Shown here piece after piece: positions 18,544-32,972 of a stretch of 64,000 nt of DNA. The DNA comes from Desulfobacterales bacterium (GTDB taxonomy: Bacteria > Desulfobacterota > Desulfobacteria > Desulfobacterales > JAHEIW01): the NCBI GenBank assembly GCA_030066985.1, contig JASJAN010000003.1, positions 62,001-126,000 of the forward strand. The letters run 5' to 3'. A program made the position numbers and the translations under genes. A model generated the notes under the pieces. That model had not been told where the DNA came from. It did no database searches and saw only the letters and a program-made list of their open reading frames with translations. How positions within the stretch are numbered: position 1 is the first letter of the stretch; every line of letters starts with the position of its first letter.

Positions 18544-18558
18544 ATGAAAGGAGTCTAC

Positions 18559-18924
18559 ATGTCGCTTAAAGTCAATTCAGGCGAGACCCGGCCCGGTGTT
18601 TTCACCATATCTCCAATTGGATCCCTCGATGGCAATACGTATAAAATTTTAGAAAGCACCGTCGATGCGGCCTTAAAAGAAATGCCGGATGTCATTATTT
18701 TCGATCTGGAATTTTTGGAATACATTAACAGCATGGGTGTGCGGGTCTTACTGAAGACCAAAAAAGAGCTTGAAAAGAACAACGGCAAGATCATGTTTGC
18801 CCATTTACAACCTCAGATCAGAAAGGTTTTTGATATCTTAAACGCCTTGCCGACGTTGAAGGTGTTTGCCAGTGTTGAGGAATTGGATCAGTATCTGGAT
18901 ACCATGCAAAAGGCAGCACGCTAG
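18559..18924 (+). CDS. STAS-domain anti-sigma-factor-antagonist-like protein
   Basis: A 121-residue single STAS domain, the fold of SpoIIAA/RsbV and of the MlaB subunit. The regulatory serine position is occupied (YINSMGVRVLL), so it could be phosphorylated by a kinase and reset by a PP2C phosphatase. ATG 18559 has AAAGGAG five bases upstream and is preferred to the ATG 15 bases earlier. It lies 234 bases before the STAS-MlaE operon, from which a long palindrome separates it. A PP2C phosphatase gene lies 7 kb away on the other strand. Either an MlaB-like role or a partner-switch role is possible. Confidence 0.8.
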   Translation: MSLKVNSGETRPGVFTISPIGSLDGNTYKILESTVDAALKEMPDVIIFDLEFLEYINSMGVRVLLKTKKELEKNNGKIMFAHLQPQIRKVFDILNALPTLKVFASVEELDQYLDTMQKAAR

Positions 18925-19070
18925 AACTGATTTCAAAACCCTCATCTCTTGCACGATGGCTGTGTTGCAAGCCGCTAAGAAATGCTCACGTACTCACGTG
19001 TACGCTCCGCTTTCTGAGCGACTCGCGCCTTGCCCTCGCACAAGATCTAATGGTTTTGAATTCAGTTCTT
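18923..19070. repeat. Long imperfect palindrome with GTAC core (copy 1)
   Basis: About 148 bases in which the left half (starting at AGAACTGATTTCAAAACC) is an imperfect reverse complement of the right half (ending GGTTTTGAATTCAGTTCTT). The centre reads GCTCACGTACTCACGTGTAC. The core AAATGCTC-CGTAC and GTGTACGCTCCGC is shared with the element at 42928-43071, so these are copies of one family. It overlaps the end of the STAS gene by two bases. Confidence 0.8.
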
Positions 19071-19158
19071 GTAATTACAAAAAAACAATTAATATTTAAT
19101 GTTTGATATCAGTACCACATTCTGAAACGAACAACTCTACCCATTCACTTTCTGAGCT

Positions 19159-20313
19159 ATGGAAGCGGTGACTGAAAAGAAGAGCGAAATCTGCGAGCTG
19201 AGTTTTGATAAGCCGGCGGAGAATACGTTGCTGGTGAAGCTGAACGGCAACTGGACCATCGATCAACAACTGCCGTCAGCAAAAGATGTAGGCCAGCAGG
19301 TTAAATCGGATCCGGCGATCAAACAAATTGCATTTGATACCGCAGCGCTCTCGGACTGGGACAGTGGGTTGCTGTCTTTTCTCACCAAAATCATCACTGA
19401 AAGTTCAGCTAAAAACATCACTGTAGACCAGGGAGGCCTTTCTGAAGGCATCCAAAAATTGCTTAAACTGGCCTTTGCGGTACCAGAAAGGGAGGGCGCA
19501 CGCAAAGAAGCAGTACGTGAGCCAATATTGCAAAGAATTGGCGAATCCGCCGTTGCAGTCGGCCAGGAGGCTATCGATACGCTTACCTTTATTGGCGACA
19601 CCTTTGTGTCCTTTTTAAAGTTTTTAGTCGGCAAAGCCCGCTTTCAGCGTTCGGATCTGATGCTGACAATTCAACAAGCAGGCGCAGAGGCATTGCCCAT
19701 TGTTACCCTGATCAGTGTTCTGGTGGGTCTGATCCTGGCGTTTATTGGGGCCGTTCAACTGGCGTTGTTCGGCGCCCAGATTTTCGTGGCCGACCTGGTG
19801 GCTATCGCCATGACGCGTGTCATGGGTGCGGTCATGGTGGGGGTCATTATGGCCGGGCGCACCGGAGCGGCCTTTGCAGCCCAGATCGGGACCATGCAGG
19901 TCAATGAAGAAATCGATGCCCTCCAGACCCTGGGGATCTCTCCTATGGAATTTCTGGTCATACCCCGTATGCTGGCGTTGATTCTGATGATGCCGCTTTT
20001 ATGTGTGTATGCGGACTTGATGGGCATCCTGGGCGGATTTATTGTCGGGGTCGGCATGCTTGACATCACTGTCAGACAATACATCAACCAAACTATCAAC
20101 GCCATGAATCTATACCATTTTTTCATCGGTATTTTTCATGCGTTCGTTTTTGGAATCCTGATTGCGCTGGCCGGATGCCTGCGGGGGATTCAGTGCGGTC
20201 GCAGTGCTGCGGCTGTTGGAGATGCCACCACATCGGCGGTGGTCACCAGTATAGTGGCCATCGTTGTGGCCACCGCGATTATAACCGTGGGGTGTAATAT
20301 TATAGGCATATAG
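19159..20313 (+). CDS. mlaE: MlaE-family lipid ABC permease with N-terminal STAS domain
   Basis: A 384-residue protein. Residues 1-110 form a STAS-like domain (LVKLNGNWTIDQQLPSAKD). Residues about 125-384 are an MlaE permease with five or six membrane helices and the family block GTMQVNEEIDALQTLGISP. MlaE dimers form the channel of MCE-type phospholipid transporters between inner and outer membrane. Here the MlaB-like STAS regulator is fused to the permease. The ribosome site is weak (CTGAGCT), and upstream in-frame starts are not better. Followed by MlaF, MlaD and PqiC-like genes, it heads a four-gene operon, though 420 bases of repeat-rich sequence separate it from MlaF. Confidence 0.9.
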   Translation: MEAVTEKKSEICELSFDKPAENTLLVKLNGNWTIDQQLPSAKDVGQQVKSDPAIKQIAFDTAALSDWDSGLLSFLTKIITESSAKNITVDQGGLSEGIQKLLKLAFAVPEREGARKEAVREPILQRIGESAVAVGQEAIDTLTFIGDTFVSFLKFLVGKARFQRSDLMLTIQQAGAEALPIVTLISVLVGLILAFIGAVQLALFGAQIFVADLVAIAMTRVMGAVMVGVIMAGRTGAAFAAQIGTMQVNEEIDALQTLGISPMEFLVIPRMLALILMMPLLCVYADLMGILGGFIVGVGMLDITVRQYINQTINAMNLYHFFIGIFHAFVFGILIALAGCLRGIQCGRSAAAVGDATTSAVVTSIVAIVVATAIITVGCNIIGI

Positions 20314-20320
20314 TACCTGA

Positions 20321-20562
20321 ATCTTGCATGAAAATTAATGCGAGCTGATAGCGCATGTAATAAGCAACTCGGTAAGTTAATTGTAAACGTATAATAAAAT
20401 ACCTGTTTGATATAGTGGATGAAAATCATTTTATCGCATTAATTTTCACCCGATGGGCAAGTCGGAGGCTTCCATCTGCTACGTTATTAAGGCCGAAGCA
20501 TAGTTGACTATAGCTTCGCCCTTAAATGCCTTGCATATGAAACCCTCCGACTTGTGCAAGAT
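20321..20562. repeat. Nested inverted repeats forming a possible three-way junction
   Basis: Three perfect pairings nest: ATCTTGCA (20321-20328) with TGCAAGAT (20555-20562), TGAAAATTAATGCG (20329-20342) with CGCATTAATTTTCA (20435-20448), and CAAGTCGGAGG (20458-20468) with CCTCCGACTTG (20544-20554). The outer stem is directly contiguous with the start of the first arm and the end of the second, so the whole can be drawn as a three-way junction. The second arm continues as an imperfect palindrome around 20505. Confidence 0.7.
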
Positions 20563-20574
20563 CCAGGTCATATG

Positions 20575-20687
20575 TTTGGTATTTTGTGTTTCGTGTTTAG
20601 TGTTTGGTGTATTAAGGTTTCAGTGTTCAGGTGTCAGGTGTCAGCCCGAGCCATCCTGACACCTGAAACCTGACACCTGACACCAAG
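20575..20687. repeat. Heptamer arrays (TTNGTGT, then inverted CTGACAC)
   Basis: 20575-20610 is a run of 7-base units of the form TTNGTGT (TTCGTGT, TTAGTGT, TTGGTGT). 20615-20644 and 20655-20687 are inverted arms built on the heptamer CTGACAC (right arm CTGACACCTGAAACCTGACA and on). Together with the preceding nested palindrome they fill the gap between mlaE and mlaF. Confidence 0.75.
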
Positions 20688-20733
20688 ACTTTCTTGACAT
20701 CGGAAAATTGAAAGCTGAAAACTATAGAATTAA

Positions 20734-21504
20734 ATGATGACCAATAATGAAGAACATAAAGAACCCCACATCATCATCGATGATTTAACGATGGCTTACG
20801 GCAGCTTTGTGGTACAGCGGGATCTGAACTTTACCATTTATCGTGGTGATGTTTTTATCATTATGGGGGGCAGCGGCTGCGGCAAGAGCACCCTGATGCG
20901 CCATATGGTGGGGTTGAAATCTCCGGCCAAGGGCAAGGTTCTTTATGACGACATCAGTTTCTGGGATACCGATCCGGAGCAACGCGGGCAAATAATGAAA
21001 AATCTCGGTATTCTGTATCAGAGCGGTGCTCTGTGGAGCTCGATGACCCTGGCGGAAAACATTACCCTGCCGTTAGGTGAATATACGGATTTGAGCCCCA
21101 AACAGATGCGTGAAATTGCATCCCTCAAGCTGGCTCTGGTGGGCCTGGCCGGCTTTGAGGATTATTATCCTTCGGAAATCAGCGGCGGAATGCGCAAGCG
21201 CGCCGGGCTGGCGCGCGCCATGGCACTGGATCCGGACATCCTTTTTTTTGATGAGCCTTCAGCCGGATTGGACCCCATCAGTGCCAGCTTATTGGATGAT
21301 TTGATTTTAGAGCTGCGGGATAGCCTGGGCGCCACCATTATCGTGGTAACCCATGAACTGGCCAGTATTTTTGCCATTGGGAACAACTCCGTGTACCTGG
21401 ATCCGAATAAAAAAACCATGACTGCTGCCGGTGATCCCAACAAGCTGCTGCAAGAAACCGAGGACCCGGAGCTGCGCAGATTTTTGACACGAGGAGAAGA
21501 ATAA
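20734..21504 (+). CDS. mlaF: MlaF-family ABC transporter ATPase
   Basis: A 256-residue ABC ATPase that powers the MCE lipid transporter with the preceding MlaE. Walker A is GGSGCGKST, the signature is SGGMRKRAGLARA, Walker B is ILFFDEPSAGLDP, and the H-loop His is in VVTHELAS. The length is normal for MlaF. This contrasts with the fused second copy at 30835. No clear Shine-Dalgarno precedes the tandem ATG at 20734/20737. It is followed by MlaD after a repeat-filled gap of 173 bases. Confidence 0.92.
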   Translation: MMTNNEEHKEPHIIIDDLTMAYGSFVVQRDLNFTIYRGDVFIIMGGSGCGKSTLMRHMVGLKSPAKGKVLYDDISFWDTDPEQRGQIMKNLGILYQSGALWSSMTLAENITLPLGEYTDLSPKQMREIASLKLALVGLAGFEDYYPSEISGGMRKRAGLARAMALDPDILFFDEPSAGLDPISASLLDDLILELRDSLGATIIVVTHELASIFAIGNNSVYLDPNKKTMTAAGDPNKLLQETEDPELRRFLTRGEE

Positions 21505-21512
21505 TAAAAGCC

Positions 21513-21664
21513 GGAGTGATGGAGCTGAAACGTTACGCGTTACGTGTTGCGGGTTACGAGTTAAAACTTGAAAGAGCAATTTACAAGACAATACGCGTAT
21601 ATGAAAAACGCAACGATATGCCGAATCCAATACTCCATTACTCCAATACTCTATTACTCCAATA
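21513..21664. repeat. Inverted ACTCCANY octamers enclosing GNTACGN heptamers
   Basis: The left motif GGAGTGATGGAG (21513-21524) faces a right run of five 8-base units (CCAATACTCCATTACTCCAA and on, 21626-21664). Between them lies a heptamer run (CGTTACG, CGTTACG, TGTTGCG, GGTTACG at 21531-21558). The layout matches 18445-18543. Confidence 0.75.
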
Positions 21665-21677
21665 AAGGTATATTGAC

Positions 21678-22691
21678 ATGAGCAAACCGGCAAATAAAAC
21701 ATTAATTGGGGCTTTTGTCGTGGGAGCTATAGCATTGATCGCATCGGCGATTGTGCTTTTCGGCTCCGGCAGGTTTTTCCGAGACATTTCTATTAACGTG
21801 GCTTTCTTTGAAGGCTCGGTCAAGGGGCTCAATGTGGGATCGCCGGTAACGTTCAGGGGGGTTCAGGTCGGCCAGGTGACCGAAATCATCGCCGGATTCG
21901 ATCCGATTGGTCTCGAGGTGTATATACCGGTCATCTTTGAAATCGATGACAGAAAGTTCCTGTATCTCGGTGAGTCTGAGGCTGGATTTGAATCATATGA
22001 TGAAGAAGCATTCGCTAAGGCGCTCATCGAAAGAGGTTTTAGAGCCCAGCTGCAATTGCAGAGTCTGGTCACCGGTCAACTGTCGATCAATCTCGACTTT
22101 TTACCGAACACACCCGTCCGATTGGTCGGCATCCACGCATTCAAAGACGAGTTAGACATCGAGCCCTGGTGGGAAATTCCGACGATACCGTCGCCGTTGC
22201 AACGACTCGAGGCATCACTTGAAAAAATTTCATTCGAGGATTTGGTGGATGATATCAGAAAAGCGATGGACGGTATTGCCACACTGGCCACTTCGCCCGA
22301 CCTGCATGCCAGCATCGGTGAATTAAAACAAACGCTGATTGCGGTCAAAGAGCTGGCGCGCCATGTCGACGCCAAGGTAGACCCCTTGACCACTAGTCTT
22401 GATCAAACTCTGGTAGACGTCAGGGCTGGCATCGGCGATGCCCGCCAGCTGATGGCAACCGACATCAAAGACGCTTTAAAATCAGCAAGAACTGCCCTGG
22501 ATAATGCCAATAAAACCTTAGCCAGCGTTGAAAACCTGGCAGATGAAGGCACTCAACTGCGCCACGAAATATCCGCAGCGTTGATAGAAGTTTCGGCGGC
22601 CGCTCGCTCTGTGCGTGTTTTGGCCGATTTCATCGAACAACACCCGGATGCGGTGCTTCGCGGAAGGGTTACCCGGACGGGAGGAAACTAA
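21678..22691 (+). CDS. mlaD: MlaD-family MCE-domain protein
   Basis: A 337-residue protein with one N-terminal membrane helix (residues about 9-30), an MCE domain (SPVTFRGVQVGQVTEI), and a long C-terminal helical region (about residues 170-320) with regular Ala/Asp/Leu spacing. It is the periplasmic substrate-binding hexamer subunit of the Mla/Pqi-like system. The length and C-terminal helices resemble the tunnel-forming type more than E. coli MlaD (183 residues). The start has an AAAGG site upstream. The stop overlaps the next start as TAATG, so translation is coupled to the lipoprotein gene. Confidence 0.9.
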   Translation: MSKPANKTLIGAFVVGAIALIASAIVLFGSGRFFRDISINVAFFEGSVKGLNVGSPVTFRGVQVGQVTEIIAGFDPIGLEVYIPVIFEIDDRKFLYLGESEAGFESYDEEAFAKALIERGFRAQLQLQSLVTGQLSINLDFLPNTPVRLVGIHAFKDELDIEPWWEIPTIPSPLQRLEASLEKISFEDLVDDIRKAMDGIATLATSPDLHASIGELKQTLIAVKELARHVDAKVDPLTTSLDQTLVDVRAGIGDARQLMATDIKDALKSARTALDNANKTLASVENLADEGTQLRHEISAALIEVSAAARSVRVLADFIEQHPDAVLRGRVTRTGGN

Positions 22692-23347
22692 TGCATCGTA
22701 AAAATTTTAGACTTGCTACTGCAGCCTTACTTGCTCTCGCATTGGTTATCAGCGGCTGCCTGGGTGGTCCCAGTCCAACGCCCGCCACTCGCTTTTATGT
22801 TCTCAATTCCTTCCACAGCGAGGAAAACCCAAATCCTCCGGAGCCGATTGCGGTTTTTGGAGATGAGGTTACCAGCCCCGGCCTCGGTGTCGGCCCCATA
22901 AAGCTGTCACAGGTGTTGGATCGCCCCCAGATCATCCTGCGCACAAGCCACAATGAAATCCAGGTAGCCGATTTGGATCGCTGGGCAGCACCGCTAAATG
23001 AATTAATAACCAATGTTCTGGTGGACAATTTTTCGGCCTTGCTTTCCACCGGATCGATTCTTAAATTTCCCTGGAAGACCACCCTTCCGATTGACTATCA
23101 AATCATCTTGGAAATCACACGCTTTGATGGTATGCCGGGAGGTAATGTTGATCTTAGGGCTCGCTGGGGTATTTTAGGCAATAATGGACAAGATGTGTAT
23201 TCGAATAGTAAAACCGTCTTAACTGAACCCATCGGTAGTGACACTATCGCTGATATGGTTTCCGCCCTGAGCCGCCTGATCGGCAAACTTAGTTTTGAAA
23301 TTGCTACAGAAATCAAAAGGCTTGAAGAAACTGGGGCGCGGCAATAA
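22691..23347 (+). CDS. PqiC/YmbA-like ABC-transport auxiliary lipoprotein
   Basis: A 218-residue outer-membrane-type lipoprotein, lipobox VISGCLGG (Cys about residue 23). The mature part matches the ABC-type transport auxiliary family: TRFYVLNSF near the start, GVGPIKLSQVLDRPQI and a NEIQVADLDRWAAPL block. In the Pqi and related MCE systems such lipoproteins dock the MCE tunnel to the outer membrane. It begins inside the stop of mlaD (TAATG overlap). This makes the operon Pqi-like at its outer end while its inner-membrane part is MlaFE-like. Confidence 0.88.
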   Translation: MHRKNFRLATAALLALALVISGCLGGPSPTPATRFYVLNSFHSEENPNPPEPIAVFGDEVTSPGLGVGPIKLSQVLDRPQIILRTSHNEIQVADLDRWAAPLNELITNVLVDNFSALLSTGSILKFPWKTTLPIDYQIILEITRFDGMPGGNVDLRARWGILGNNGQDVYSNSKTVLTEPIGSDTIADMVSALSRLIGKLSFEIATEIKRLEETGARQ

Positions 23348-24116: not shown

Positions 24117-24887
24117 CTAAAAATTATAGATGACCAGAACACCGGTAAACAATTGGGTTTCAGAGCCTTCATCCACCACCGGGCTGTCGTCATCGGCATC
24201 ACCCACCAGTTGCTTGATTTGAAGCAGACCGCGCAGGTCCCAGTTCTGGGCAAAACCCCAGTTGACGCCCAAATCGATACCCACATCTTTCATGCCCCCA
24301 TCGGCGTCGTAGGTATCCAGCCCGCTACGATTCGAATCGCGCACATCAACACCAAAATAGGTGCTCATGTAATCATCGCTGGCATAAGTGGCAAAACCGC
24401 CGATGGTCAGCGCCCATTCGCTGTTGATGATCCAGTTGTAACCACCTTTGAGGGTGCCGTAAGACCCATCATGGGCATCGCCAATATCGGCCAACCACTC
24501 TAAAAACACATACCAGTTCTGCCACTCGATACCACCAAACAACCCCAGTTCATTGGCATCGCTAACCGTTTTGAAATCGTCCACCTGGTTGTTTTCGACA
24601 TCGGATCGCTGTGCACGGTAGTTGTAAACCGGCCCCAGACGCCAGAAATCGCTGGGAATCAGATTGGCCCTTAAATTCAAGCCCAGCAATTCAACATACA
24701 TGCCGTTGTCAAATCGGGCTGAACCGGCCGGGATTGGCACAAATTCATAATCTTCCGAGCCCTCGTAATCGGGTGCGATACCGATACCACCACCGATGGA
24801 AAAATCAGCAGCCTGGGCTGCGGGGATCACCAGAAACAGCGCCAGCAGCGCACCCAGCAATCCCAAAAAAAATTTCCGAATTTTCAT
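24117..24887 (-). CDS. MipA/OmpV-family outer-membrane protein (copy A)
   Basis: A 256-residue exported beta-barrel protein. The signal peptide (MKIRKFFLGLLGALLALFLV, cleavage after AAQAAD) leads into the MipA/OmpV start GGGIGIAPDYEGSEDYEF. It ends in Phe (LVIYNF) as outer-membrane barrels do for BAM recognition. The strong site AGGAGGAG before ATG 24887 fixes the start. Family members are outer-membrane porin-like or scaffold proteins. Copy B at 27258-28037 is a close paralogue. The two flank the phosphatase/ODP pair. It has its own terminator. Confidence 0.87.
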   Translation of the reverse strand: MKIRKFFLGLLGALLALFLVIPAAQAADFSIGGGIGIAPDYEGSEDYEFVPIPAGSARFDNGMYVELLGLNLRANLIPSDFWRLGPVYNYRAQRSDVENNQVDDFKTVSDANELGLFGGIEWQNWYVFLEWLADIGDAHDGSYGTLKGGYNWIINSEWALTIGGFATYASDDYMSTYFGVDVRDSNRSGLDTYDADGGMKDVGIDLGVNWGFAQNWDLRGLLQIKQLVGDADDDSPVVDEGSETQLFTGVLVIYNF

Positions 24888-25138
24888 CTGTTCTCCTCCT
24901 TTACTCGCAGTCACAAGTCGATGGTTACCAATTTTTTCCACTAATTCAGGAATCATTCTCATTAACAAATTATCCTTTCTCATATATAACTACACCGAGA
25001 AAATCAACTAAAAGATGAGGCCGACATCAAAAATTAACAAATTTTAATAGGGAAAAAGACAATAACGCCTGGGAAAAGCAGTGCTTACGGATAGGCTTGC
25101 TGAACAGGCTGTGAACGGATAATCGTATCGCGGCTTGT

Positions 25139-26137
25139 CTATTTGAACTCCAGCCCGAGCAGGGTAATATCATCCTGCGGTTTGGTGTGGTTGCCGAAAT
25201 TCAATAATGATTGAATGGATTGTTCGATCATTCTATTGATCGATTGATCCCGCAAGGCTAGCAGTGTTTCACAGAAATGCTCGGTGCCGAAAAATTCACC
25301 ATCCGGATGCTGATATTCGATGATGCCGTCAGTATAGACAAAAAGCCGATCACCGGGCCGAAGCTGCTGGTGTCCCTCCTCAAATCTTTCGGCTTGACCG
25401 CTTAACAGGTGAAACTCTCCCATGCCGATGGCCGGGCCGCCCTTTTGCAATAGTTCAAGATGTCCATCCCGGCGCATCAAAATCGAGTGCGGATGCCCGG
25501 CATTGCTATAGGTCAAATCTCCGGTTTCGGAGTTGATAATCATATAGGTAATCGTAAAAAAATTATTAAAGCGCTCGAATGGAAACTCGTCATCAAGGGC
25601 CGTCAGGACTTCAGCCGGAGTTTGGATGTGAACGCTGGCTGCTGAATGTCCATGCTCGGGATTTAGCAGATGCCCGGAGTTGGGCTGCAGAAACTGCGCA
25701 ACCGAAACGGTGATCATCGCTGCCTGAACACCGTGACCGCTGACATCGAGCATGTACAGCGCCCAGTGGTCATTGTCCAGCTGAATCATATTAAATATAT
25801 CGCCGCCGGTGTGCTCGCAGGGCTCAAATTTCCAGGCAATCGAAAGGTTTGCGGTTGAATCGATTCGGTGGGGCAAAAGGCTTTTCTGAATCTCAGCTGC
25901 AGCCGCAAGGTCGGCATCCAGTCGCTTCTGATTGTCTAACAGCTCCTGATTCAGCTGCTTGAGCTTTTTTTCAGAGGCCGAATATTTTAAAACCAGCTCC
26001 TGCAGGAGTTGATTGTTGATTCCTGTGTCTTTTAGAGATGCCCAGTATTCCAGTACCTGTTTGATCAAAGGCCCATTGTCAGGATTCTGCAGATCTAAAT
26101 GCTCGATTTGATCTCTTAACAGATCGTCCAATTTCAT
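25139..26137 (-). CDS. PP2C (SpoIIE/RsbU-type) serine phosphatase
   Basis: A 332-residue cytoplasmic protein. An N-terminal helical region with a coiled coil (about residues 45-90, YSASEKKLKQLNQELLDNQ) leads into a PP2C_SIG domain with metal-binding aspartates in TGGDIFNM, LDVSGHGVQAAM and VYTDGIIEYQ. The linker motif DLAAAAEIQKSLLP is typical of RsbU-type signalling phosphatases that dephosphorylate STAS antagonists. It starts one base after the stop of the ODP-like gene, so the two are translationally coupled and the diiron protein is the probable input sensor. A candidate substrate is the STAS protein at 18559. Confidence 0.9.
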   Translation of the reverse strand: MKLDDLLRDQIEHLDLQNPDNGPLIKQVLEYWASLKDTGINNQLLQELVLKYSASEKKLKQLNQELLDNQKRLDADLAAAAEIQKSLLPHRIDSTANLSIAWKFEPCEHTGGDIFNMIQLDNDHWALYMLDVSGHGVQAAMITVSVAQFLQPNSGHLLNPEHGHSAASVHIQTPAEVLTALDDEFPFERFNNFFTITYMIINSETGDLTYSNAGHPHSILMRRDGHLELLQKGGPAIGMGEFHLLSGQAERFEEGHQQLRPGDRLFVYTDGIIEYQHPDGEFFGTEHFCETLLALRDQSINRMIEQSIQSLLNFGNHTKPQDDITLLGLEFK

Positions 26138-26138
26138 T

Positions 26139-27002
26139 TTATGTCAACCGATCCCTCAATTTGTCAAAATCAAAAGCATAATCGTCATCAACCAAACCGT
26201 CTATACCGACATCTTTTAAATCTATCAACTGCTCAAACACATAGCGCATTACCTCCCGATCACGGATAATACTGCCATGCTGGGGCGCAATCATCCTGAA
26301 AGGCACCTCTAAAAGTTGTTCAAGGGCATATTTCAACGCTTTGGCAGATGGCATTACGGTTTTATGAAAATTGAGAATATCCTTAATCGGGCAGACGGTC
26401 CTTTTTGCGGGGCAATTTGAAAGATTTACACAGTCCATACACTCCGGTCGCAATTGTAAAAACAGCTCCCACTCAAGTCCCAAACTGCCAAACAGGTCGC
26501 TGCTGAATAGGATTTTGCTTTGGGGGTCGAAGGTGACAAAGCTGCCGCCGGAATGTGAATAGGGCGTCTTGATAAACTGCAGGGTTCGACCGGATGAAAA
26601 GGCATATTGGTGATGAATCTGACTGATCGGCAGCAGACGGTTCGATACTGCGTAATGGCGAATAAACATCAGATTGGCCGAATCGGATATAATTTTGAGA
26701 TCATCGCGTTTGATGATGTCCTCAAAATTGGGAATACTGCCGCACAAATCCGGATCGTAATGCTGGTAGAGGAGGCCTGAGATTTGGCCGGGCGCAATGC
26801 CGGTTTGCAAAATTTTCATCATCACCGTAGCAAAGTCCGGGCGACTGCCGCCGTCAATTACTAAAGCCTCATCATGATCGACGATCAAATAGGGATTGCA
26901 ATGCAAACCCGCGGGCTCATCGTAATAACCAACCCAGAAAACACCTTCTGCGATTTCCACTGATCGTTCGAGGTCGATGCTATCTTTTTCATGCTGTAAC
27001 AT
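26139..27002 (-). CDS. ODP-type metallo-beta-lactamase-fold diiron protein
   Basis: A 287-residue protein with the lactamase-like fold of flavodiiron proteins but no flavodoxin domain. The probable metal ligands are H81, D83, D85 (QHYDPDLCGS), H150 (YSHSGGSF), D169 (SSDLFGS) and H242 (APQHGS). The usual HxExDH motif has Asp for Glu and lacks the last His (L86). This matches ODP oxygen-binding diiron sensors, which bind O2 and signal in place of reducing it. An insertion after the barrel has four clustered Cys (C188, C191, C197, C204). No good Shine-Dalgarno is visible. It is coupled to the PP2C phosphatase. The sensing role is inference from family and context. Confidence 0.8.
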   Translation of the reverse strand: MLQHEKDSIDLERSVEIAEGVFWVGYYDEPAGLHCNPYLIVDHDEALVIDGGSRPDFATVMMKILQTGIAPGQISGLLYQHYDPDLCGSIPNFEDIIKRDDLKIISDSANLMFIRHYAVSNRLLPISQIHHQYAFSSGRTLQFIKTPYSHSGGSFVTFDPQSKILFSSDLFGSLGLEWELFLQLRPECMDCVNLSNCPAKRTVCPIKDILNFHKTVMPSAKALKYALEQLLEVPFRMIAPQHGSIIRDREVMRYVFEQLIDLKDVGIDGLVDDDYAFDFDKLRDRLT

Positions 27003-27257: not shown

Positions 27258-28037
27258 TTAAAATGTGTAAACCACTAAGACCCCTAAAAAAAACTGATGC
27301 TGTGAGCCTTCGTCGGTTACCGGGCTGCTTTCATCGGCATCGCCGACCAGCAGGTTATAGCTTCCGAGCAACCGCCCACCCCAGTTTTCATTAAACTGGC
27401 ACAAAATGCCCAAATCAAAGCCGACATCTTTAATCCCTGAATCCGCATCATACTGGCTCAGTCCGCTACGCGCCGAATCGGCAGAGTCAACCCCGAAGTA
27501 GGTGCTCATGTAATCATCGTCGGCATAGGTGGTGGAAAGCCCGAACGATAAGGTCCAGCTATTGCTGGCCTTCCAGTTGTAACCGCCGCGCAGGGTGCCC
27601 AGCCATCCTTCGTGGGCATCACCGATGTCCGCTAGATACTCAACGAAAACAAACCAGTTGTTGTAATCAAATCCCCCAAAGCCACCGATTTCATTGGCAT
27701 CGCTGACGTTTGACAAACGGTCTACGGCATTGCTGTCCACACTGCTGCGTGAGGGGCGATAATTGTACATGGGACCCAAGCGCCAGATCTGGCTGGGAAT
27801 CAGATTGGCTTTAGCATTTAGGCCTTGTATGGTCGCAAACATGCCATTGTCGAAGGCAACCTCGGCAAAGGGGATCGGTACAAAATCGTAGTCGTCCGAG
27901 CCTTCATAGTCCGGTGCCACACCGGCACCGGCGCCGATGGAGATATCTGCTGCCGAAGCAACAGATGCCACAGCAGCCACCATCAAAAATGTGGTTAGCC
28001 CGGCCAAAAACCTCATGATCATACGTTGATGTTTCAT
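27258..28037 (-). CDS. MipA/OmpV-family outer-membrane protein (copy B)
   Basis: A 259-residue paralogue of the protein at 24117-24887, sharing the blocks GVAPDYEGSDDYDFVPIP, ANLIPSQIWRLGPMYNYR, DIGDAHEG and DDYMSTYFGVD, and a Phe C-terminus. Signal peptide cleavage is near SVASAAD. The start at 28037 is set by AAGGAGG seven bases upstream. It is the last gene of the second Mla operon, 54 bases after mlaA, so this copy is probably produced with the lipid-transport machinery. A link between MipA barrels and MlaA is known for Pseudomonas only in general terms and is not proven here. Confidence 0.87.
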   Translation of the reverse strand: MKHQRMIMRFLAGLTTFLMVAAVASVASAADISIGAGAGVAPDYEGSDDYDFVPIPFAEVAFDNGMFATIQGLNAKANLIPSQIWRLGPMYNYRPSRSSVDSNAVDRLSNVSDANEIGGFGGFDYNNWFVFVEYLADIGDAHEGWLGTLRGGYNWKASNSWTLSFGLSTTYADDDYMSTYFGVDSADSARSGLSQYDADSGIKDVGFDLGILCQFNENWGGRLLGSYNLLVGDADESSPVTDEGSQHQFFLGVLVVYTF

Positions 28038-28091
28038 CACATTTCCTCCTTCAGGCATCGCATGGTGTTTGCAGCCTCATTGGCAGTGGGG

Positions 28092-28904
28092 CTATTCGGC
28101 GATCAATTTATTACGATGCGCAATGTAAGCATCCCGCACAGCCACATAGGGATCCAGAACGGCCTCTTTCAGGGCATCGATATCGTCGATCTCAAAAGAA
28201 ATCTCATTGAATTTTTCATAGGCCAGAATGGCCAGACGGGTTTTCCAGTCCAGATCCAGCCAGCTGATCGGATCCAGGAAAAAAGAATCGATAAAGCGGG
28301 CGCTGTCGCGCAAACTGGAGGGGCCTAGAATCGGATACATGATAAAGAACCCTTCGTCAGCACCCCAAACGCCTAGTGTCTGGCCCAAATCCTCGGGGCT
28401 GGGCGGCAAATTATCGTAGTATGAAGCCGGCGTCTGAATGCCTGCAAAACCGACGGTGGAGTTGAGAAAGAAGGTGGCAAATTCCTCCAGGGCTTTGGTG
28501 CCTTTGGCCTGCAGCAAACAGTTGACGAAGCGAATGGGAAACCGGAGATTAACAAAGAAATTCTTTACCGACAGCCGAATTTCTTCCGGCATAACTACGT
28601 TATACCCTTTCGCCAGGGGCCTTATAATGGCCGTGTACATGGCGTCATTAAAAATGAAAAATTCTTGGTTCAGGCGAATAAGCGGATCGTTGACCTCCAC
28701 CACTTCATCGTCATACTCGTCATCGTATTCATCATCATATTCGTCATCTTCGTCAGAGGCTTCACCTGCGTCAGCCGGTTTTTCCTCGGCCTGCTGGGCC
28801 AAAAGAATAACCCCGGACTCGCGCTCCAAAGCATAGGAAGTATTAAAAACAGCGACGATTAGAAAGAATGCCAAGATTACTGTTGCAGCCAGTAATTTCT
28901 TCAA
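28092..28904 (-). CDS. mlaA: MlaA/VacJ-family protein with acidic linker, no lipobox
   Basis: A 270-residue protein whose residues 73-270 match MlaA: VNDPLIRLNQEFFIFND, FFVNLRFPIRFVNCLLQ, GVWGADEGFFIMYPILGP, and the RDSARFIDSF block. MlaA forms the outer-membrane lipid channel that removes mislocalised phospholipid from the outer leaflet. Two oddities stand out. The N-terminus is a plain signal peptide (LLAATVILAFFLIVAVF) with no Cys, whereas E. coli MlaA is a lipoprotein, and residues 51-67 are an acidic repeat (DEYDDEYDDEYDDE). The TTG start is supported by AAGGAG eight bases upstream, and no ATG fits. It lies between the mlaC pair and mipA. Confidence 0.87.
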   Translation of the reverse strand: MKKLLAATVILAFFLIVAVFNTSYALERESGVILLAQQAEEKPADAGEASDEDDEYDDEYDDEYDDEVVEVNDPLIRLNQEFFIFNDAMYTAIIRPLAKGYNVVMPEEIRLSVKNFFVNLRFPIRFVNCLLQAKGTKALEEFATFFLNSTVGFAGIQTPASYYDNLPPSPEDLGQTLGVWGADEGFFIMYPILGPSSLRDSARFIDSFFLDPISWLDLDWKTRLAILAYEKFNEISFEIDDIDALKEAVLDPYVAVRDAYIAHRNKLIAE

Positions 28905-29003
28905 GGGGTGCGCTCCTTTCGTCTGTTACCGGTTAAATCTGCTGTGTCCTCCTATCGAACTTTAGCGGCACAACGTATGCTGCCAGGACTAAGTGTCTGT
29001 TGT

Positions 29004-29600
29004 TTATTTGGTTTTATCTCGCAGCGTCTGCAGTAAATCTTCCGGCTTCTTTTTCGACAGGATCTGCCGGAACTGCCCGCGATAGTTTTTGACCATGCTG
29101 ATGCCTTCGATGACCACATCGTAAACCCGCCATTGGCCGCTTTTATCGGTTAGGCGGTAAAATAAAGGCACCTTTTTGTTGTCCGTCGTAATAATATAGC
29201 TTTCAACCTCCACCCGGCCCTTCTTCAGCTGGGTCTCTTTGCCGAATTCGATTTTTTCGCTGGTATACGCCAGAATACGGTCGGCATAGATGTCTTGCAG
29301 AAGCGCTTGAAAAAGACTCACAAATTCCGTTTGCTGCTCGGGAGTGAATTTTCGCCATTCCCGCCCCAGGGTGCGGCGTGACAGCTCCTGCCAATCAAAC
29401 ACCTCATCGATGACGGTGCTGATCTCTTTTATCTGGCCACCCCGATCCAGAGCTTTAAATTCCGGGGTTTTCATTTTGGTTAGCATCTTGTTGATCTGCG
29501 CTTCAACCGTGTCTTTGGCACCACCGGCCAGGGCTTGCACCGGCAGGATTAGCAAAACCGCCAGTAATATAATCGTCGGCGCGATAAGTTTCCTTTTCAT
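29004..29600 (-). CDS. mlaC: MlaC/Ttg2D-family periplasmic lipid carrier (copy 2 of tandem)
   Basis: A 198-residue exported protein (signal MKRKLIAPTIILLAVLLI, cleavage after ALAG) with the MlaC domain: FDWQELSRRTLGREWRKFTP, then DKKVPLFYRL-like and GQWRVYDVVIEGISMVKNYR blocks. MlaC shuttles phospholipid through the periplasm between MlaA and MlaFEDB. It is very similar to the immediately upstream gene, pointing to tandem duplication. The ribosome site is AGAGAGGA. Downstream, the MlaA gene starts 99 bases later. Confidence 0.9.
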   Translation of the reverse strand: MKRKLIAPTIILLAVLLILPVQALAGGAKDTVEAQINKMLTKMKTPEFKALDRGGQIKEISTVIDEVFDWQELSRRTLGREWRKFTPEQQTEFVSLFQALLQDIYADRILAYTSEKIEFGKETQLKKGRVEVESYIITTDNKKVPLFYRLTDKSGQWRVYDVVIEGISMVKNYRGQFRQILSKKKPEDLLQTLRDKTK

Positions 29601-29657
29601 CTGATATTCCTCTCTCGTGGGCGATGGGGTTACACCGGCAGTTAAACGTCTGAAGCT

Positions 29658-30269
29658 TTAGCCGGCCGGCTTTTCTTTAGCCTTTTTCCGCATGGTTTTC
29701 AGCAGATCTTCAGGCGTCTTGGTCTTGAGGATCTCCCGGAACTGCCCGCGGTAGTTTTTAATCATACTGATGCCTTCGATCACGACATCATATACCCGCC
29801 ATTGACCACTTTTATTGGTCAAACGGTAAAATAAAGGAATTTTTTTATTGTCCAGCGTGACAATGTAGCTTTCAACCTCCACCCGGCCCTTCTTGAGTTC
29901 GGTCTCTTTACCGAATTCGATTGTTTCGCTGGTATAGGCCAGGATGCGGTCGGCATAGACATTTTGCAGGATTTGCTCGAAAAGACTAATAAATTCCTTT
30001 TGCTGATCCGGTTTAAATTTTTTCCAATCCCGGCCCAGGGTCCGGCGGGACAGCTCATTGAAATCAAAAACTTCGTTGATGATTTGCTGGATCTCGGCTA
30101 TTTTCGCATCTCTCTGTAATTGCTTGAAGCTGGGTTCCTTCATGCGGGTCAGCATTTTCTTAATCTGCGCTTCGACGGTGTCTTTAGCGCCTGCGGCAAG
30201 CGCCTCAAACGGCAATAGCAGCATGATGGCCAGCAGGATAGCGGCCAGTGTAAAGTATTTTCTTTTCAT
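29658..30269 (-). CDS. mlaC: MlaC/Ttg2D-family periplasmic lipid carrier (copy 1 of tandem)
   Basis: A 203-residue MlaC paralogue: signal peptide MKRKYFTLAAILLAIMLL, then FDFNELSRRTLGRDWKKF and the WRVYDVVIEGISMIKNYRGQ block that lines the lipid pocket. It differs from its neighbour mainly in the helical N-terminal quarter and in the C-terminal tail. It follows mlaD by 104 bases. Two MlaC carriers per operon could serve different lipids or the two MCE complexes of this window. A third, more distant copy is at 55084. Confidence 0.9.
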   Translation of the reverse strand: MKRKYFTLAAILLAIMLLLPFEALAAGAKDTVEAQIKKMLTRMKEPSFKQLQRDAKIAEIQQIINEVFDFNELSRRTLGRDWKKFKPDQQKEFISLFEQILQNVYADRILAYTSETIEFGKETELKKGRVEVESYIVTLDNKKIPLFYRLTNKSGQWRVYDVVIEGISMIKNYRGQFREILKTKTPEDLLKTMRKKAKEKPAG

Positions 30270-30373
30270 TTGTTTACCCCCGATGCAAAATAATCAAAAG
30301 TCAAATTAATTTAAGATGATAGCTATGAACCTGTGACGGGGTAGGCCAAGATTTCGTCTACAATTCGGTCTGT

Positions 30374-30838
30374 TTATTCTGCTTCACCGCTGCCGACATC
30401 GCCAAAGGCATATTTGCTGACCAGATCCATCAGATCTGTGGGCGATTCGGTATCGGTGATGGTATCACCATTTTCCAATAAATCGCCGCCACCGCCGGCA
30501 TCGATGCTGACGAATTTGTCACCGATCAGGCCCTCGGTCTTGATGGAGGCAATGGCATCATCGTAGATTTGAATGCCGTTATTGATTTTGAGGGTAACCA
30601 CCGCCACCTGATTTTCCTGATCCATTTCAAAAGACTGCACCCGGCCGACCTCGAGGCCCAGCATATTTACCGGGCTGCCGACCCTGAGACCCGTCACCGA
30701 GGTGTACTTGGCATACAGGGTGTAGGCTTTTTCCCCTAAAAAACCGACATTGCCGAGTTTAACCGTCATGTAAGCGATGGCGAATAGGCCGATAACCACA
30801 AAAATTCCAACAACTGTCTCCTGGGCATACTTTTTCAT
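30374..30838 (-). CDS. mlaD: MlaD, MCE-domain subunit
   Basis: A 154-residue protein with one N-terminal membrane helix (VGIFVVIGLFAIAYMTV) and one MCE domain (SVTGLRVGSPVNMLGLEVG), the usual short MlaD form. It forms the hexameric ring on MlaE. Its start overlaps the stop of mlaF by four bases (ATGA), showing tight coupling. The C-terminal tail (SPTDLMDLVSKYAFGDVG) is short, unlike the 337-residue homologue at 21678. Confidence 0.93.
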   Translation of the reverse strand: MKKYAQETVVGIFVVIGLFAIAYMTVKLGNVGFLGEKAYTLYAKYTSVTGLRVGSPVNMLGLEVGRVQSFEMDQENQVAVVTLKINNGIQIYDDAIASIKTEGLIGDKFVSIDAGGGGDLLENGDTITDTESPTDLMDLVSKYAFGDVGSGEAE

Positions 30839-32091
30839 TGCGTCTTACCTCCGCGTTCACATTGAAAACGTGCAATTGGCGTTTGATTAAAACGCGCAAA
30901 TTCCATTACCGATTCGATTTCGATCTGAGGCTTGCCCTGGGCCAGGCCGGCTTGAATACTGAACTCAAAAAAACCTTCGCCGGGTTTTTCGCCCTTATCC
31001 AGGGTTTTGATGTCGGGCAAACCATGATCCCGAAAATCCTTTTTGAAATCCGCCATGATGCGCTCGGCCTCATCCAGGTCCGAATAGGGCAGCACGGTGG
31101 CATATTCATTAATGGTCTGCCGGCTGGAAAACCCGCCAACAGCACCAAAGTGTTTGTTAATATAGGAGCCCAGCGCCCGGATGATCTCCTGGGCAGCGTC
31201 ATGTCCCATATGCTCGATGATGGTATCCAGGTCATCCACCGCAAAGGCCGCCACAGCATACATGGCATCCGGATTGCGCTTGCTTAAATCGGTTTGGTAA
31301 CGGACCTTAAAGTGGCGCTTGGAGTACAGGCCGGTGATGTCTTCCTGCAGACTTTCAAGACTGGTCAAGATTTCTTCGCGGAAGGGGTGTTCAAACTCCT
31401 CGAATTCATCCGGCGGGCCCTGGAACACAATTTTTTTGCCATAAAGCGCCAGGATGCGGTTGGAAATAAAATAGACATCCGGTATTTCGTGGCTGATCAA
31501 AAGGGCAGTAAATTTAAACCGGCTTTGGTATTCGGCCACCATACCCAAAATGGCATTTTTGCGGATGGGATCCTGGCCGGTGGTGGGCTCATCAAAAAGA
31601 ACCAGGGACGGATCGGTGACCAGCGCCCGGGCCAAAGCGGCCCGCTTTTGCATGCCGCCCGACAGCTCTGACGGATATTTATCATAGACTTCGGTCAGTT
31701 CGGTCTGCTCGATGGCCGCCATGGCTTTTTCCGCAATTTCCTTTTTATTCATCTTGGTGGTCTGGCGCAGCGGAAGAGATACATTTTCAACGATGGTCAT
31801 CGAATCAAAAAGAGCGTTGTTTTGAAACATATAGCTGATCTGACCGATATATTCATTCCACTCTTTTTTGGTCATTTCATCGATGGGTTTACCCTTGTAC
31901 AAAATTTTACCCTCATCGGGTTTGAGCAACCCAATAATGTGCTTGAGGGTCACGCTTTTGCCGGTGCCGCTCAATCCGATCAGAGTCGTCACCTCGCCCT
32001 CATAGATTTGAAAATCGACCTTATTCAGAATGGTGCGCTCGCCGAAGCTTTTGGTGATGCCCTTAAATTCGATGATCGGTTGTTTTTCCAT
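30835..32091 (-). CDS. mlaF: MlaF lipid-transport ATPase fused to a degenerate GGDEF domain
   Basis: A 418-residue protein, about 160 longer than MlaF. Residues 1-240 are a complete ABC ATPase: Walker A GLSGTGKS (39-46), signature LSGGMQKR (143-150), Walker B VLFDEPTTGQDP, H-loop His201. Residues about 250-410 align with a GGDEF fold: DITGLYSKRHF for the usual LTGLYNRRYF, EHMGHDAAQEIIRALGSYI for DTYGHDAGDEVLRALA, RQTINEYATVLP where RYGGDEFAVLLP is expected, and FEFSIQAGLAQG near the end. The active-site GGDEF reads TINEY, so diguanylate cyclase activity should be lost. A regulatory or nucleotide-binding role is inference. It lies between mlaE (26 bases) and mlaD (4-base overlap). Confidence 0.9.
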   Translation of the reverse strand: MEKQPIIEFKGITKSFGERTILNKVDFQIYEGEVTTLIGLSGTGKSVTLKHIIGLLKPDEGKILYKGKPIDEMTKKEWNEYIGQISYMFQNNALFDSMTIVENVSLPLRQTTKMNKKEIAEKAMAAIEQTELTEVYDKYPSELSGGMQKRAALARALVTDPSLVLFDEPTTGQDPIRKNAILGMVAEYQSRFKFTALLISHEIPDVYFISNRILALYGKKIVFQGPPDEFEEFEHPFREEILTSLESLQEDITGLYSKRHFKVRYQTDLSKRNPDAMYAVAAFAVDDLDTIIEHMGHDAAQEIIRALGSYINKHFGAVGGFSSRQTINEYATVLPYSDLDEAERIMADFKKDFRDHGLPDIKTLDKGEKPGEGFFEFSIQAGLAQGKPQIEIESVMEFARFNQTPIARFQCERGGKTQ

Positions 32092-32117
32092 AATTTGCCT
32101 CTAAAAGATGAAAACGG

Positions 32118-32972
32118 TTAGGACATAATGAAAGCGGTGACGACATAATCCGAGACCAGGATCATCACGCATGAGAGCACCACCGCCGACGTGGTCGACA
32201 AGCTGACACTGCGCGCGCCGAAGCTGTCGGTGCGCATATGGGTGTAAAATCCCTGAAAGCAGCAGATGGTGACCACCAGAAGGCCAAAGACCAAAGACTT
32301 GACCAGTCCACCGGTGATGTCGTCCAGCTCGGTGCTGGAAACCACCCGGTAAAAATAGGCCCCGGAATTCACTCCCAGCAGCAGAGAGCCGCTGACCCAG
32401 CCACCGATAATCCCGATCCAATTGAAAAAGGTGGTTAAAATGGGGAAGCTGATGATCGCTGCCGCAATCCGCGGGCTGATCAAAAATCCCACCGGATCGA
32501 TGCGCATGGTGGACAGGGCATCGATCTGTTCGGAAATACGCTGGATGCCGATCTCTGCGGTCATAGCCGAACCGGCCCGCGCCGTAATCATAATGGCGGT
32601 CAGAACCGGTCCCAATTCTCTGATCAATGAAAGTGCCACAGCCGTGCCCAGCACCCCCACCGAACCGAATTTAATCAGCACAAAGTAAAGCTGCAGGCCC
32701 AGGACCATACCGGTAAAGAAGCCCACCAGCATACAGATCTGGGCGGACTTGGCCCCGATGAAGTATATCTGCTGGACAATAGCGGAAAACTGCTTGGGGT
32801 TAAAAATCAGGATAAAGGCACGGGCAAAAAAGATGGCGATGGCCCCCAGATTGCCATTGATACGCATGGCGCGGGCGCCAAACGGATGAAAAAGCCAGGT
32901 AAACGGGTTGCCGGGTTTTGATAAGGCGACCTCTTCGGACGGATTTTGATCGCTTGAATTTTCTGCAGCCAT
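32118..32972 (-). CDS. mlaE: MlaE lipid ABC permease
   Basis: A 284-residue permease with five or six membrane helices and the MlaE block TAEIGIQRISEQIDALSTMR. It lacks the N-terminal STAS domain carried by the homologue at 19159, having only a short hydrophilic lead (SSDQNPSEEVALSKPG). It is the first gene of the second Mla operon (mlaE, mlaF-GGDEF, mlaD, mlaC, mlaC, mlaA, mipA). A G-rich stretch (GGGGGGAA) precedes the start at a usable distance. No separate MlaB gene is present in this operon. Confidence 0.92.
   Translation of the reverse strand: MAAENSSDQNPSEEVALSKPGNPFTWLFHPFGARAMRINGNLGAIAIFFARAFILIFNPKQFSAIVQQIYFIGAKSAQICMLVGFFTGMVLGLQLYFVLIKFGSVGVLGTAVALSLIRELGPVLTAIMITARAGSAMTAEIGIQRISEQIDALSTMRIDPVGFLISPRIAAAIISFPILTTFFNWIGIIGGWVSGSLLLGVNSGAYFYRVVSSTELDDITGGLVKSLVFGLLVVTICCFQGFYTHMRTDSFGARSVSLSTTSAVVLSCVMILVSDYVVTAFIMS

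Follow-up and report, generated by a model that had tools for sequence, protein, structure and literature searches.

A Cys4-type ODP protein and its PP2C phosphatase partner look like a sensor-and-plug pair in a Desulfobacterales bacterium

Introduction

A 64,000-nucleotide stretch of DNA from a Desulfobacterales bacterium (contig JASJAN010000003.1), here called the window, has a locus that raises the question of how a single free ODP sensor might address different enzymes. In this locus, the gene for an ODP-family protein is followed at once by the gene for a PP2C-type phosphatase. That ODP genes share operons with various signalling genes, and that ODPs also occur fused to signalling domains, has already been described in general terms (PMC7319448, which cites Muok et al. 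2019; PMC6978683). An earlier note, made from the sequence alone, had proposed that the two proteins form an oxygen-controlled partner switch acting on a STAS protein encoded nearby.

In our reading, the ODP and the phosphatase probably make up a bipartite sensing module, consisting of an ODP with a four-cysteine insert (Cys4) and a docking segment on its partner. By their sequences, they have the look of a sensor and a plug wired by bacteria to different outputs. This reading is drawn from the confinement of the segment, in the genomes sampled, to neighbors of Cys4 ODPs and from its occurrence on three kinds of enzyme: phosphatase, kinase and cyclase.

The ODP protein and the adjoining phosphatase

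The first gene of the pair (26139-27002, minus strand) encodes a metallo-beta-lactamase-fold protein of 287 amino acids, a putative Fe/O2 sensor that lacks a flavodoxin domain. It matches the ODP family in a Pfam profile search (PF19583, E 4.6e-54), and its nearest solved relatives are the ODPs of Thermotoga maritima and Treponema denticola (6qrq, 1.5e-21; 6qnm, 7.6e-16). An AlphaFold model built from ten input sequences (pLDDT 81) returned 6qwo, 6qrq and 6r9n as the first Foldseek matches (1.4e-18). The ligand set listed in the earlier note, H81, D83, D85, H150, D169 and H242, is correct, with these residues kept in 38 to 41 of 41 aligned homologs that are coupled to a partner of the kind described below. 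Within motif 2 of the diiron site, H81-x-D83-P-D85-L-C87 (26742-26762, minus strand), each position is conserved in 39 to 41 of the 41. The same note had remarked that one canonical histidine is lacking. The motif-2 histidine is indeed absent, but judging from the alignments this is an ODP trait and no defect, as the glutamine of the PQHG motif (Q241) is kept in 39 of 41 coupled homologs, and in the T. maritima ODP the glutamine of motif 5 stands in for that histidine (PMC7785958). Going by the family, O2 or iron is somewhat favored as the signal that the protein reads.

The second gene (25139-26137, minus strand) encodes a PP2C/SpoIIE-type serine phosphatase of 332 amino acids that matches PF07228 (E 4.2e-41) and has the catalytic motifs GGD, DVSGHG, TDG..E and DD all intact. 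The junction reads ACA TAA A ATG AAA, so that a single base separates the ODP stop codon from the phosphatase start codon, just as the earlier note had stated. Like RsbU and RsbP, the phosphatase has a SpoIIE/PPM domain with the metal-binding Asp motifs; at its N-terminus, Pfam and PDB profile searches found no match to an RsbU_N or PAS domain. A long helix, predicted at residues 42-87, may join the N-terminal segment to the PP2C domain as a coiled-coil linker (25868-25948, minus strand), a role suggested by analogy to RsbU. The arrangement of helices is a weak prediction, since the model was built from four sequences and has a mean pLDDT of only 39.5. A Pfam match of the phosphatase to TMEM131L (0.0069, below the cut-off) was judged to be due to chance. 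Searches for RNA structure at the junction and for Rfam families found nothing.

A four-cysteine insert sets apart the coupled ODPs

The window ODP contains an insert with the pattern C188-x2-C191-x5-C197-x6-C204-P (26391-26441, minus strand), which is a possible zinc or Fe-S site. All four cysteines are invariant in the 41 aligned segment-coupled ODPs (41/41). The solved ODPs, as aligned, have no such insert, nor do the ODPs whose chain also contains a PP2C, GGDEF or receiver domain. In a tree of ODP sequences the coupled type is likewise set apart from the fused ODPs (support 97/98), with some of the inner branches left open. Two kinase-coupled ODPs from one genus (L174 and L175) have most of the iron ligands replaced and retain both Cys4 and the partner, which indicates that Cys4 is not a mere accessory of the diiron site and that diiron sensing is not universal within the module.

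Natural fusions of ODP-PP2C, ODP-GGDEF and ODP-REC type were found, and in one distant relative (G020) the ODP and PP2C domains occur in a single chain. The fused proteins carry neither Cys4 nor the partner segment, and so they support the link between ODP and PP2C but not the docking segment. Two loci (L070 and L071, in G127 and G231) encode an ODP-receiver fusion of ~400 amino acids beside a histidine kinase gene, and these also have no Cys4 and no partner segment. At another locus (L171/L191, G510:C29), the gene of a Cys4-type ODP next to a cyclase partner is itself split into two frames, and one in-frame TAG is reported; this ODP gene may be inactive, or the assembly may be wrong.

A shared N-terminal segment found only with Cys4 ODPs in the genomes sampled

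Every partner with complete flanks, whether phosphatase, kinase or cyclase, has one ~63-residue helical segment in common at its N-terminus, the proposed docking segment. It follows the pattern LL.ELV.KY...EKKL..LN and runs on into the enzyme's own dimerization helix. In the window phosphatase it is encoded at 25949-26137 (minus strand), includes the 'LLQELVLKYSASEKKL' face, and is recognized by a segment-only profile (A6) with an E value of 5.3e-24. Searched against Pfam and the PDB, the segment profile had no credible relative, and weak matches to clathrin, TFIIE and S100 proteins were judged to be chance. There are 23 SpoIIE matches in the window's genome, and the segment is absent from all the other SpoIIE proteins that were retrieved from it. 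A search of the accessible literature, which did not reach the main ODP paper, found no description of either the segment or Cys4.

Two profiles, one of the segment and one of the ODP, were run against a class sample (389 genomes) and a phylum sample (395 genomes). In the phylum sample, the segment and the Cys4-type ODP each picked out the same 12 genomes (12/12). In the class sample, the segment was found in 28 genomes and the ODP in 28, with 27 common to both, where the ODP count leaves out four genomes that have only a fused, Cys4-less ODP. The two exceptions (G114 and G303) sit at contig starts, and in G303 the end of an ODP is present there. Across nearly 800 genomes, the segment was thus found only beside Cys4 ODPs or at contig ends. 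The hypergeometric probability of this co-occurrence is ~4e-23 for the phylum and <1e-36 for the class (on slightly conservative counts), values that overstate independence because related genomes are treated as independent. Beyond the phylum, the breadth of the association is represented by two Nitrospinota loci.

Three unrelated enzyme classes stand behind this one segment. The partners of Cys4 ODPs comprise 19 PP2C phosphatases, 8 histidine kinases and 16 class III cyclases. HisKA kinases were found beside the ODP in the two Nitrospinota genomes and in several genomes of the window's phylum, while the gene for the class III cyclase is placed upstream of the ODP gene. The type of effector changes at least four times on the ODP tree, with the cyclase-coupled ODPs forming one clade (97/91), and one genome (G044) has two pairs, an ODP-cyclase and an ODP-PP2C.

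The conservation of the gene pair across genomes was a point raised in the earlier note, and the pair is kept well beyond the genus. The same two genes lie side by side in close relatives within the order and are retained across families. In a genome of the same genus (G001) the whole neighborhood is preserved, including the Mla-type operons, and once other families within the order are compared, the surrounding genes differ and the ODP-PP2C pair alone remains. The persistence of the pair while its neighbors change implies that selection holds the pair and not the neighborhood. The pair is also absent from many genomes of the order, including one relative of the same genus (G002) and one of the same family (G005). 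The coupling of an ODP sensor to a PP2C output, as the note had proposed, is well supported by the conserved pair, the ODP-specific segment and the single-chain ODP-PP2C protein.

Proposed mechanism and alternatives

By analogy to its family, the ODP would bind iron and O2 at the diiron site and change its conformation. The Cys4-type ODP may then bind the N-terminal segment of its partner, to which the genetic linkage is itself observed. The anatomy of the partners, together with RsbU and RsbP, suggests that the helix of the segment would continue into the partner's dimerization helix, which would be the PP2C linker, the HisKA helix or the cyclase transducer depending on the enzyme. Binding of the ODP would in this way set the dimer state of the partner and switch its activity. 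For the phosphatase, the expected outcome is dephosphorylation of a STAS antagonist encoded elsewhere, which would alter an RsbW-type partner switch. We infer the binding of the segment, the signal that is passed on and its sign. In a more speculative form of this scheme, which we hold to be possible though doubtful, the ODP would be a dual-site metal sensor, where the diiron site reads O2 or iron, the Cys4 site (zinc or Fe-S) docks onto the exclusive segment or reads redox state for it, and phosphatase, kinase and cyclase outputs have been swapped behind that segment.

The earlier note had put the target of the phosphatase in the window, with the ODP controlling a local O2-dependent partner switch whose substrate is the STAS protein encoded at 18544-18924 (plus strand). 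That protein is real, is like an anti-sigma antagonist (TIGR00377, 4e-15), has an intact regulatory serine in its YINSMG motif, and is conserved with the pair in G001. However, 6 kb separate the gene from the pair, it is encoded on the opposite strand beside an Mla-type operon, and its linkage to the pair is lost beyond the genus. The window's genome has about ten STAS proteins and at least four RsbW-like kinases, and several of these genes form pairs at their own loci: STAS-RsbW pairs occur on three contigs (C11, C33 and C66), and contig C4 has a STAS-SpoIIE pair. Neither a cognate STAS antagonist nor an RsbW kinase linked to the window phosphatase was found. A STAS protein does adjoin the pair in one relative (G080), where a SpoIIAA-like gene is located 26 bp downstream of ODP-PP2C; it was the sole relative found with this arrangement, and no RsbW gene was seen at its locus. 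With this gene order, a STAS protein remains the likeliest class of target, and partner switching through STAS is plausible in general. As the substrate of the window phosphatase, the 18544 protein is very unlikely, and the local switch built on it is given little credence.

The signal might instead be read or coupled by the Cys4 site, as zinc or as an Fe-S cluster, with the diiron site being secondary. Its invariance, its association with the docking segment and absence from fused ODPs, and its retention together with the partner where L174 and L175 lose their iron ligands would all fit such a role, but the diiron ligands and the PQHG glutamine typical of the T. maritima ODP are kept in 39 of 41 coupled proteins, and the divergent L174 and L175 may simply have lost sensing. 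We consider this account rather unlikely. Least probable of all, and hardly to be credited, is a flavodiiron-like role for the ODP as an enzyme that reduces O2 or NO, with the phosphatase a chance operon neighbor. The fold is the same as that of flavodiiron proteins, but there is no flavodoxin domain, the ligand pattern is that of ODPs, and a separate FDP-like protein is encoded in the window's genome. The one-to-one occurrence of ODP and segment in both genome samples and the two Nitrospinota genomes, as well as ODP fusions to signalling domains, also speaks against a chance neighbor.

Comparison with known systems

The ODP of the proposed module shares with those of T. denticola and T. maritima (Muok et al. 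2019; 6qrq, 6qwo and 6r9n) the fold, the Pfam family and a ligand pattern in which glutamine takes the place of the motif-2 histidine, and it is likewise a putative auxiliary soluble sensor encoded beside its signalling partner. The partner of the T. denticola ODP is a chemoreceptor, whereas those of the window-type ODPs are a PP2C, a HisKA kinase or a class III cyclase with a common N-terminal segment. The Cys4 insert is found in the window-type ODPs and in neither of the other two.

A similar architecture has been described for RsbQ and the RsbP-type PAS domain (PMC3183031), which are encoded by adjacent genes and have a phosphatase, a kinase or a diguanylate cyclase as output. In both cases a free protein with an enzyme fold is encoded beside a partner that has a fixed N-terminal region and a PPM phosphatase, histidine kinase or cyclase output. 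The RsbQ systems combine an alpha/beta hydrolase, a PAS domain and a GGDEF cyclase, while here a metallo-beta-lactamase-fold ODP is combined with a short helical segment and a class III cyclase. The window pair is therefore not of the RsbQ-PAS type, having an ODP instead of the hydrolase and a partner with no PAS domain. RsbT and RsbU offer a further likeness. Binding of RsbT orders the coiled-coil linker of RsbU, leading to dimerization and activation of the phosphatase, and the authors propose that sensor domains can be exchanged among phosphatases, kinases and cyclases (PMC12143880). There a protein acts on the N-terminal helical region and linker of a PP2C, and the N-domain is also present on kinases and cyclases. 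The window segment differs in having no RsbU_N match, and its binder would be a putative metal sensor and not RsbT.

What the present pair contributes to the question of how one free sensor could address different enzymes is one short segment, occurring one-to-one with an ODP type defined by sequence and carried by three unrelated enzymes. If the segment is a docking site, the idea of exchangeable modules derived from RsbQ-PAS and RsbT-RsbU becomes testable with a metal sensor, and sequence alone would allow a likely input to be assigned to these bacteria's phosphatases, kinases and cyclases.

Genomic neighborhood

The window pair is flanked on the same strand by two genes for MipA-like outer membrane proteins (PF06629) at 24117-24983 and 27258-28058, and at least one such gene is retained beside the pair in G001. 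On either side of the pair is an Mla-type lipid transport locus, one per strand (18544-23347, plus strand; 28092-32972, minus strand), and the second contains the MlaC-like genes 29004-29600 and 29658-30269 in tandem. This Mla arrangement was found to be kept in the same genus alone.

Among the relatives, small open reading frames that appear ferritin-like by eye lie near four ODP-cyclase loci (L006, L008, L009 and L012); they had no Pfam or credible PDB match. At a further locus (L019:2287-3252), a hemerythrin-domain protein (Pfam, 1.4e-16) is encoded directly downstream of the ODP. In Syntrophorhabdaceae-like genomes, a cluster of REC-PP2C, STAS and RsbW-like genes is located a few kb upstream of the ODP-cyclase pair (L006:1145-3241, and also L008 and L012).
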